Shown: positions 5,611-60,876 of the stretch, in pieces
Numbering within the stretch: position 1 is the first letter of the stretch
Layout of the letters: each line of letters opens with the position of its first letter
Made by a program: the position numbers and the translations under genes
Source: Halomarina litorea
GTDB taxonomy: Archaea > Halobacteriota > Halobacteria > Halobacteriales > Haloarculaceae
DNA: 64,000 nucleotides
Assembly: GCF_024227715.1 (NCBI RefSeq)
Contig: NZ_CP100448.1
Coordinates: 434,001-498,000 of the forward strand
Direction: 5' to 3'
The notes under the pieces: generated by a model
What the model saw: the letters and a program-made list of their open reading frames with translations, nothing else
Databases searched by the model: none
What the model was told of the DNA's origin: nothing

Positions 5611-5724
5611 GACAACTCGCTGGGCGGACGGGCACCAGTGGGCACCTGCCTCGGCAGGTCGGGATGTGACTCGCGTCCGGAGGACGCCGGGTTGAACCAC
5701 GCAACGCCCGTCGGTGATTACACA
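5611..5724 (+). promoter_or_regulatory. structured 5' leader of the L15e gene
   Basis: The predicted leader folds into a compact three-way junction. GACGGGC (5627-5633) pairs with GCCCGTC (5706-5712) over 7 bp and encloses two perfect hairpins: ACCTGC/GCAGGT (5644-5649 with 5654-5659, CTCG loop) and GCGTCC/GGACGC (5673-5678 with 5682-5687, GGA loop). The closing stem ends one base before GGTGAT, the likely ribosome-binding site, so folding could affect initiation. Autoregulation by a ribosomal protein is a reasonable guess. It could instead be a separate small RNA. The pairing is seen directly; the function is inferred. Confidence 0.5.
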
Positions 5725-43821: not shown

Positions 43822-43867
43822 AACACATCTCTCCTCCGTTTCGAGTCCGATAGTTGGTCGCTCCCGT

Positions 43868-44100
43868 CTGCCCTGTCGGATTTGAACCAGACCTCGCACC
43901 TCCCAGTTGCTCGACAGTTCAAATCCGGGTCGGCCCCTCCGACGCGAGTTGCTCGGCTCTCGCACACGCCTCGCTGCCGCTCGGCGGTGCTCGATGGTGA
44001 CGCGCGTCAGAGATGGGCCCTGCCGGATTTGAACCAGAGGAAGACGGACCGCTCGCTCCGCTCGCGGTTGCGACTTCCTTCATTCAAATCGGCAGCGGTG
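43868..44100. repeat. two tRNA-tail foldback elements
   Basis: Unit A: a 21-base near-copy of the tRNA(CAU) 3' region (43870-43890, one mismatch) faces an inverted copy, GGATTTGAAC at 43878-43887 against GTTCAAATCC at 43917-43926. Unit B: a 25-base exact copy (44013-44037) extends into AGGAAG and faces CTTCCT plus an inverted, slightly shortened tail at 44074-44095; its core is CGCTCGCTCCGCTCGCGG. About 20 bases of the tRNA's downstream flank are also copied with unit B. No gene is visible here. Confidence 0.75.
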
Positions 44101-44134
44101 ATTCGACACGACGCGCTGACGCGCGTCGGTCTCA

Positions 44135-44243
44135 TGGGCCCTGCCGGATTTGAACCAGCGATCACCCGGTGTCCCACGGACCTGCCACGACGACAGCGAA
44201 CCGATATGAGCCGGGGGCTGTAACCAGACTTAGCTAAGGGCCC
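44135..44243 (-). tRNA. tRNA with CAU anticodon and 34-base intron
   Basis: Acceptor GGGCCCT pairs with AGGGCCC, discriminator A. T-arm GCTGG/CCGGC has loop TTCAAAT, and anticodon stem CCCGG pairs with CCGGG. The anticodon loop CTCATA is interrupted after position 37 by a 34-base intron (44171-44204), the usual archaeal splicing position. Exon 1 is 44205-44243 and exon 2 is 44135-44170. The anticodon CAU fits elongator tRNA-Met, whose haloarchaeal genes usually have an intron; tRNA-Ile2 (modified CAU) is the alternative. CCA is not encoded. Confidence 0.85.
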
Positions 44244-47496: not shown

Positions 47497-47551
47497 CAGG
47501 CGGTATCGACGGGGTACAGCCGACGCTGGCGACGTAGCTTCCCAAAGAGTA

Positions 47552-47577
47552 GTGAGCGCCACCGCCAGGGCTCGAAC
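47552..47577. repeat. 26-base copy of the tRNA-Asn tail
   Basis: This segment is identical to 47699-47724, which covers the last 21 bases of the tRNA-Asn gene and 5 bases of flank. The copy has no matching 5' part. Between the copies lies a foldback with arms CTCAC/GTGAG (47657-47661 and 47699-47703) and an inner pair CGGTC/GACCG (47666-47670 and 47683-47687). The 5' edge of the copy also faces an imperfect inverted CGCCTCAC near 47597-47604. Confidence 0.75.
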
Positions 47578-47703
47578 ACGCCCGGAGGTTCCTGCTCGCC
47601 TCACGACATTCGGCTCCGCGGACTGCCTCCGGTCTGCTCGACCTCTCGACGCGGCACTCACGGAACGGTCGCTCGCGGACGAGACCGCTCGCAGAAATGT
47701 GAG

Positions 47704-47776
47704 CGCCACCGCCAGGGCTCGAACCTGGGACAACCTCGTTAACAGCGAGGTGCTCTACCAGCTGAGCTACGGCGGC
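47704..47776 (-). tRNA. tRNA-Asn (GTT)
   Basis: A 73-base cloverleaf with all stems intact. Acceptor GCCGCCG pairs with CGGTGGC (one G-U), discriminator G. D stem is GCTC/GAGC, the anticodon loop is CTGTTAA giving GTT, and the T arm is CCAGG/CCTGG with TTCGAGC. No intron is present, and CCA is not encoded. Confidence 0.95.
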
Positions 47777-53801: not shown

Positions 53802-53874
53802 GTCCTGGTAGGGTAGTGGACTATCCTCTTGGCTTGCGGAGCCAGGGACCGGAGTTCAAATCTCCGTCAGGACG
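53802..53874 (+). tRNA. tRNA-Arg (GCG)
   Basis: A 73-base cloverleaf. Acceptor GTCCTGG pairs with TCAGGAC (one G-U), discriminator G. T arm is CGGAG/CTCCG with TTCAAAT. Anticodon stem TTGGC/GCCAG holds the loop TTGCGGA, which places GCG at 34-36, so it reads CGC and CGU codons. CCA is not encoded. A TTTTC tract follows at once and may end transcription. Confidence 0.92.
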
Positions 53875-54131
53875 TTTTCAGGTGCGCAACGTCGCGAGCG
53901 TAGCGAGCGACCGCGCACCGAAACGCCGCGCGGTGATTTGAGCAGACGAGACGAGCGCCAGCGAGTCTCGGCGCGTTCAAATCTCCGTCAGGACGCTTAC
54001 TTCACAACCGCAGAGCGGTTCGCTCGTGCGCGCCCTGACGTGCCTCACGCTCGTTTCGTCGCCGGCGCTTCGCGCCGGCTTCCAGCGGGACCTTCGGTCC
54101 CGCGCAGCTCGCGTGAGACTCCGTCAGGACG
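53875..54131. repeat. tRNA-Arg tail foldback array
   Basis: No gene is visible. A 21-base copy of the tRNA tail (53975-53995) is the right arm of a foldback whose left arm has GATTTGA at 53935-53941; the core holds CGAGAC/GTCTCG. A 13-base copy (54119-54131) is the right arm of another: CCTGACG (54034-54040) and CTCACGC (54044-54050) face GCGTGAG (54111-54117) and CGTCAGG (54122-54128). Inside that loop are two perfect 8-bp hairpins with TTC loops (54061-54079 and 54085-54103). A further palindrome, GGTGCGC..GCGCACC, begins at 53881. Confidence 0.8.
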
Positions 54132-60486: not shown

Positions 60487-60876
60487 TCAGGCGACGAGAG
60501 GTGAGTGGGGGGCAAGAAAGGAGCGGTTCCGTGGAGCGAGCGAAGTGAGCGACACGGAGCAGGGAGCACCGAAGGTGTGACCGAGTTCTACGGAGGGAGC
60601 GAACGCAGTGAGCGACCGACGTAGAATCAGTGAGACGAACGGAGTGCGTCTCACGCGATTCCCGCGAGCACAGCGAGCGGGGGTACACGGGTACGCTCCG
60701 CGTCCCGCCCAGTTCCCGCGAGCGAACGCAGTGAGCGACCGACGTAGAATCAGTGAGACGAACGACGCGCGGCGCGACCGTCGGGAGGGCCGCGACGAGG
60801 CGAGCGGTGGAACCGCGAGCAGTGCGTCTCACGCGATTCCCGCGAGCACAGCGAGCGGGGGTACGCGGGTACGCTC
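60487..60876. repeat. duplicated palindrome array
   Basis: No gene is visible. Two long copies of one unit are present: about 60598-60690 and about 60719-60875. Each contains GAACGCAGTGAGCGACCGACG, the hairpin arms GTGAGACG/CGTCTCAC, and CCCGC/GCGGG around GAGCACAGCGA. In copy 2 about 55 extra bases sit inside the loop of the GTGAGACG hairpin. Upstream, TTCTACG and CGTAGAA form 7-bp arms, and CCGTG/CACGG 5-bp arms around a GAGCGAGCGAAGTGAGCGA core. Confidence 0.8.

Follow-up and report, generated by a model that had tools for sequence, protein, structure and literature searches.

Tandem foldback units ending in tRNA tail copies behind haloarchaeal tRNA genes, and their possible recombination at the tRNA end

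The tRNA-Arg(GCG) gene of Halomarina litorea is followed by foldbacks that end in copies of its own 3' tail, which raises the question of what these structures are and whether they belong to this one tRNA or to tRNA genes at large. Mobile elements land at tRNA genes more often than anywhere else, and small repeats beside these genes have been little studied. The window analyzed here is a 64,000-nucleotide segment of the haloarchaeal chromosome (C1:434001-498000). A preliminary description, made from the letters alone, reported tail copies of 21 and 13 bases as the right arms of two foldbacks, inverted left arms opposite them, and two perfect 8-bp TTC-loop hairpins inside the second. Sequence comparison confirmed all of these at their positions, with both copies exact (Table 1), and we could add two features that had been missed: a hairpin, GGTGCGC/GCGCACC, directly behind the tRNA and an inner stem, CGAGAC/GTCTCG, in the first foldback.

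The last 21-22 nt of tRNA-Arg(GCG) constitute the master tail. Hairpin 1 of module I adjoins the tRNA 3' end and occupies a slot that interchangeable hairpins fill in relatives, and the right arm of hairpin 2, GTTCAAATC, is at the same time the beginning of tail copy 1. The ORFs listed downstream of the tRNA are overlapping frames in G+C-rich DNA, so the spacer holds no credible gene, and no decayed mobile element with genes of its own was found there. The window has two further tRNA genes, tRNA-Asn (47703-47776, minus strand) and an intron-bearing tRNA-Met (44135-44243, minus strand), and both are also accompanied by tail copies, one for tRNA-Asn (47530-47702) and two for tRNA-Met (43850-44134). 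Elsewhere in the window, three GAGCGA-type palindromic core motifs lie at 60534-60738 with no tRNA nearby, and an Rfam eL15-Euryarchaeota ribosomal leader scores above its gathering cut-off at 5645-5703.

Table 1. Features of the tRNA-Arg(GCG) locus, in window positions.
Feature	Position	Strand	Basis
tRNA-Arg(GCG) gene	53802-53874	+	ARAGORN, Rfam RF00005
Master tail GTTCAAATCTCCGTCAGGACG, T-loop start to discriminator base	53854-53874	+	Sequence comparison
Unit I	53875-53995		
Module I, hairpin 1: GGTGCGC/GCGCACC, outer part TTTTC/GAAA	53875-53924	+	Folds
Arms of hairpin 1, GGTGCGC and GCGCACC	53881-53887, 53913-53919		
Module I, hairpin 2: left arm GATTTGA (53935-53941), inner stem CGAGAC/GTCTCG, right arm GTTCAAATC (53975-53983)	53935-53983	+	Folds; class-wide structure with covariation
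Tail copy 1, 21/21 identical to the tRNA-Arg tail GTTCAAATCTCCGTCAGGACG	53975-53995	+	Sequence comparison
Unit II	53996-54131		
Module II, hairpin 1 (CCGC-AGAGCGG region of the fold)	54009-54029	+	Folds; counterpart present in relatives
Module II foldback	54034-54128	+	Folds; stems common to L195, L196, L198, L199 and L201
Outer stem of module II, CCTGACG/CGTCAGG	54034-54040, 54122-54128		
Inner stem of module II, CTCACGC/GCGTGAG	54044-54050, 54111-54117		
Two 8-bp TTC-loop hairpins joined by TTCCA, optional insertion in module II loop	54061-54103	+	Comparison with relatives
Single TTC-loop hairpins	54061-54079, 54085-54103		
Tail copy 2, 13-nt form CTCCGTCAGGACG	54119-54131	+	Sequence comparison

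Folding predictions of the kind proposed in the preliminary description placed 53875-54131 above 200/200 dinucleotide shuffles in both forms, with z -3.4 for DNA and z -4.3 for RNA. Significant folding in both forms cannot discriminate a DNA reading from an RNA reading, and the RNA value agrees with the main rival to the explanation we favor below. Under this rival, the modules would encode a structured trailer RNA that corresponds, in archaea, to E. coli rtT RNA: a read-through tRNA transcript would be cut by RNase Z to free the trailer, the tail copy would serve as a tRNA-like 3' end, and the hairpin would be kept for the work of the RNA. We judge it possible, if on balance somewhat unlikely. 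The E. coli precedent keeps it a strong rival: there the repeat layout is alike, and the 171-nt RttR RNA stops where the first tail copy ends. A CTTCT-like trailer, often found after the haloarchaeal tRNA and after the tail copies alike, points in the same direction.

To survey the source genome, we took all 42 tRNA genes with their flanks and sought a copy of each gene's own tail 40-330 nt downstream. Copies matching in at least 20/22 positions were found behind 20/42 genes, and behind 25/42 at a threshold of at least 17/22. Tails of other tRNAs, compared with the same zones, reached these thresholds in 4/1718 and 77/1718 comparisons, respectively, and no own-tail match of at least 17/22 occurred within 330 nt upstream of the 42 genes or 700-990 nt downstream of them. 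The contrast between 20/42 own tails and 4/1718 foreign ones, together with the empty upstream and far-downstream controls, excludes chance, and copies were thus found at tRNA genes other than the one first described. Arrays consist of one to three hairpin modules, each ending in an exact or near-exact copy of the last ~22 bases of its own tRNA. Units of two types occur in the source genome and may come in either order: in type I the tail starts at about -22, in type II at about -14. The arms behind the Tyr, Gly(CCC) and His tRNAs mirror the odd T-arms of those same tRNAs.

The copied block has sharp edges that fall on features of the tRNA. It runs 22 nt from the start of the T-loop to the discriminator base, with a minor class of 13-16 nt. 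Across 169 copies, which were selected on the acceptor part alone from a locus set enriched for pattern hits and hence inform on shape rather than frequency, identity to the tail leapt from 0.37 at position -23 to 0.83 at -22, then fell from 0.95 at -1 to 0.63 at 0 and to background by about +6. Left ends peaked at -22 (n=81), and a smaller group ended at -13 to -16 (n=20). First copies begin 72-151 nt downstream of the tRNA (5-95% range), and units of about 75-150 nt comprise two hairpins followed by the tail copy. The letter-for-letter match of a copy to its own tRNA is left unexplained by the trailer-RNA rival.

The copies are usually preceded by a hairpin. An inverted T-loop arm lies within 70 nt upstream of the first copy at 174/200 loci, compared to 3/200 in a shuffled control. 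Its commonest form is a 44-nt hairpin whose inner stem is 96.5% paired and covaries (5 pairs changed on both sides, 16 cells; both values exceed all 500 shuffles); because the pattern used to choose the set dictates the arms and some flanking bases, the independent part of this evidence is confined to the inner stem and loop. The mismatches G12.G33 and A15/G29A30 are invariant in this form, partly owing to the pattern selection, and identical bases recur in hairpins found without the pattern. Core orientation is constant in 172/173 cases. The sole exception, a Haloferax locus (L400, genome G190) in which the core is inverted between its T-arm repeats, was missed by a motif-based search for inverted cores and detected by an alignment-based one. 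Covarying stems, one-strand invariant mismatches and fixed orientation in hairpin 2 would all suit a functional trailer RNA.

Left arms also match their own tRNA beyond the shared T-loop, at 0.72 versus 0.52 for other tRNAs. Such a fit is what templated correction of imperfect palindromes would yield, and it is consistent with an origin that needs no dedicated machinery: template switching would generate palindromes and duplicated tails, and gene conversion and slippage would homogenize the copies and alter their number. GAGCG-rich palindromes are indeed common in these genomes. We nonetheless regard this origin as improbable, as a fixed 22-nt block with sharp edges, a core shared behind many tRNAs, invariant mismatches and near-constant orientation would not be expected from random events.

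Complete surveys of two further genomes indicated that the tail-copy pattern is wide among haloarchaea yet not universal: a genome from an unrelated family (G007) carries copies at 19/43 tRNAs, whereas the complete genome G129 from a third family (f10) has them at 0/40. As an array-free haloarchaeal genome, G129 is useful for spotting a correlated gene. A trailer RNA is hard to reconcile with these counts, as about half of tRNAs, plus all 40 in G129, manage without units. The pattern GATTTGA-N24-40-TTCAAATCC was present in 203/292 Halobacteria genomes, and its reversed control gave no match in any listed genome. Of 30 such loci from 30 genomes, 26 follow a tRNA that has a tail copy, at a distance of 32-90 nt; at a further locus (L061) the pattern comes after the second of the units that follow a tRNA-Gly, and at another (L057, genome G016) an insertion of ~1.27 kb separates tRNA and array.

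Scanning about 85,000 species' genomes gave at least 120 matches, and among those listed 89 were behind a tRNA; by record title, all of these 89 are haloarchaea except one Woesearchaeota MAG. The latter (L278), outside Halobacteria, has a typical unit behind tRNA-Ser (18/22), with contamination possible. The remaining 31 matches listed include a few haloarchaeal contigs with the tRNA cut off or uncalled. The other non-haloarchaeal matches among those listed had no tRNA with a matching tail: Poseidoniales matches appear to be a tRNA gene's own arms, and others inverted tRNA pairs or chance. At least 120 matches of the hairpin pattern in viral contigs were likewise read as chance; among those listed, only two contigs exceed 55% G+C, neither has a tRNA and both loops look unrelated. 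SRP RNA genes, used as a control in 29 genomes, showed zero tail copies, a further point against an origin without dedicated machinery. A mechanism tied to tRNA loci, as the preliminary description had argued, is therefore well supported by the presence of arrays at most tRNA species across Halobacteria, by block edges that are tRNA features and by the SRP RNA control.

Comparison of relatives shows that modules have been gained, lost, reordered and shuffled. Behind tRNA-Arg(GCG), seven congeners display the orders I-II, II-I and I-II-I', plus a decayed unit. At tRNA-Ser(TGA), 15 Haloferax genomes carry one- and two-unit arrays as well as short forms with a 14-nt tail only, and hairpin-1 types A, B and C combine freely with hairpin-2 types X, Y and Z. 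One of these genomes provides an exact empty site: in G112 (L397) the tRNA joins the flank that follows two units in G189 (L391). In the source genome, the Arg(TCT) array contains units bearing the Arg(CCT) tail, which argues that units pass between loci. One unit, a module plus a tail that is Arg(TCG)-like, was also seen displaced 4.7 kb from its tRNA and on the opposite strand (L215, C1:1074805-1074940). Losses between direct repeats are compatible with the slippage invoked by the no-machinery explanation, but loss of units, swapping of hairpins and altered order between close species are unlike the behavior of a needed RNA.

The double TTC-loop hairpin, which the preliminary description took as two side stems of a cruciform, did not hold up as part of the core structure. 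It is present in unit II at two related loci (L195, L196) and missing from three (L198, L199, L201). Other sites in the genus and haloarchaeal plasmids also carry the motif GCCGGC-loop-GCCGGCTTCCAGCGGGAC-loop-GTCCCGC, in most cases away from tRNAs. These dispersed copies, on chromosomes and plasmids (L546, L558, L562, and within L540 and L543), share the plan GCCGGC..GCCGGC-TTCCA-GCGGGAC..GTCCCGC, with an outer stem that differs from place to place. A weak match of Rfam CRISPR-DR20 to 54056-54089 (25.3 bits against a gathering cut-off of 42) corresponds to this dispersed double hairpin. The double hairpin is either an optional guest or a shared structural motif, and lies outside the core.

Weighing these observations, we tentatively favor, at somewhat less than an even chance, the explanation that the array at 53875-54131 comprises two small non-coding foldback modules, which recombine at the tRNA tail and are moved in trans. 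In each module, two hairpins are followed by a tail copy that reaches the discriminator base, from the T-loop start in module I and from the acceptor side in module II; this copy would act as attachment and recombination site. Units would enter behind the tRNA and exit between direct tail copies, and hairpins would be exchanged at the T-arm inverted repeats. The tRNA would remain intact throughout, since every unit brings the tail. Recombination at the tail is where the block edges, the exact empty site, the reordering and the hairpin swapping all point, and the conserved hairpin with its fixed orientation suggests a recognized structure. The mover would be a tRNA-targeting recombinase acting in trans, most likely a tyrosine recombinase, with the hairpin as its presumed recognition site. 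Movement between tRNAs would need an extra step, because crossover into a tRNA with a different tail would give chimeric tRNAs.

Two known att locations in tRNA genes are the T stem-loop and the 3' end, and for SNJ2-type integrases the att site can be as short as the tRNA acceptor end (PMC8371274). The edges of the copied block coincide with both locations, and the 13-16-nt class fits an SNJ2-type acceptor-end core by length alone. Edge profile and empty site also show that a direct repeat of the tRNA 3' end bounds the units, as in tyrosine-integrase elements. The units, gene-free at about 75-150 nt, contain no integrase gene and so could only be non-autonomous. Against the foldback-unit explanation, losses between direct repeats are possible by ordinary slippage. 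One integrase of the genus is similar to integrases of tailed haloviruses, but we saw no hairpin associated with it, and an integrase fragment searched against viral contigs found no relative. Nor did we find a halovirus, plasmid or integrase element with the hairpin at its own att end.

The two integrated elements that we examined use a longer att and sit between tRNA and array, which also counts against the foldback-unit explanation. In one congener (L539, G294:C1:433000-451500), a 14-kb integrase-coding element with an att of ~44 nt lies between tRNA-Arg(GCG) and an intact tail array, and the ~1.27-kb insertion at L057, in which no integrase was seen, has an att block of ~40 nt and separates tRNA-Gly(TCC) from its array. 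Integrase elements thus do enter these tRNAs, as they would if the units were decayed attR remnants of ordinary large elements. We consider this very improbable and largely refuted: the tight unit lengths, uniform two-hairpin plan and complete lack of remaining genes weigh heavily against it, and the true elements left their long att blocks before the arrays and not within them. As to a use of the copies once in place, the preliminary description had raised decoys for tRNA 3' processing enzymes, since the copies reproduce the T-loop and the acceptor 3' strand. RNase Z binds the minihelix, and a copy without the 5' strands of T stem and acceptor would form no minihelix by itself; in module I, moreover, the T-loop copy is already paired with the left arm. 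We give this proposal hardly any credence.

A bolder version of the foldback-unit explanation, which we offer as doubtful, would see in these arrays a class-wide haloarchaeal system in which hairpin cassettes, gene-free and anchored at tRNAs, recombine in the form of folded strands at the T-loop or the acceptor end by means of a putative recombinase. Tail copies may act in it as landing sites that spare the tRNA. In the literature searched, mostly without subscription papers, haloarchaeal tRNA-tail arrays had no earlier description, a result that speaks only weakly for their novelty. With a defined copied block and a conserved hairpin, arrays that follow roughly half of the tRNA genes, as they do in two of the three fully surveyed haloarchaeal genomes, offer a natural data set on tRNA ends in recombination, and the RNA and DNA explanations are separable experimentally in a tractable host such as Haloferax.

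Several known systems share parts of this layout. SNJ2-type and other haloarchaeal tyrosine integrases also leave a tRNA 3'-end direct repeat with edges in the T-loop or acceptor region (PMC8371274), but the units have neither integrase nor cargo, and real elements here used an att of ~40-44 nt. In Haloquadratum, PATEs and the small mobile repeats (the latter ~80-110 bp) are short and non-coding, have palindromes or inverted repeats and are presumably moved in trans; they are described as duplicating no target, and the small mobile repeats enter other mobile elements (PMC3119063). Unlike PATEs and IS200-IS605 derivatives, which have near-terminal palindromes and no target duplication, the haloarchaeal units are bounded by a 22-nt direct repeat and sit at tRNA ends. 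Casposons target tRNA 3' ends with a short target duplication, yet they are large, code for Cas1 and PolB, and have terminal inverted repeats and a 14-15-nt duplication, in contrast to gene-free units with a main block of 22 nt. Integron attC sites offer an analogy only: a hairpin folded from a single strand, in which unpaired bases are conserved and one end varies, in an array of units beside a fixed site, to which a cassette array with the tRNA gene as that site might be compared, although no attC sequence (core GTTRRRY), gene cassettes or IntI acting on a folded bottom strand are shown here.

The nearest precedent is the E. coli tyrT/tyrV-rttR (rtT) repeats (NC_000913.3), so that the architecture is already known from one bacterial operon. 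To our knowledge, these repeats have long been known while their origin and role are unsettled. The tyrT-tyrV spacer and the rttR repeats (L508, NC_000913.3 1285800-1288400) have the same foldback layout as the haloarchaeal units. Behind tyrV, 18-nt copies of the tRNA-Tyr tail lie at 160, 338 and 516 nt. Every copy belongs to a unit of 178 bp, in which the inverted left arm GGGGAAGGAT faces ATCCTTCCCC, and GAGCG/GAGCGCCAGCGAG-type palindromes lie between them. In both cases an inverted arm pairs with the tail copy. The block of 18 nt, which includes the encoded CCA, the unit of 178 bp, the core sequence and the inner hairpin differ from the haloarchaeal ones, and Rfam rtT had no match within the window. 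E. coli has such repeats at one tRNA operon, whereas haloarchaea have them at about half of all tRNA genes in some genomes. With tandem units that follow a tRNA and each end in a tail copy, the haloarchaeal arrays belong to the E. coli tyrT/rtT kind, and they place the E. coli repeats in a wider family.
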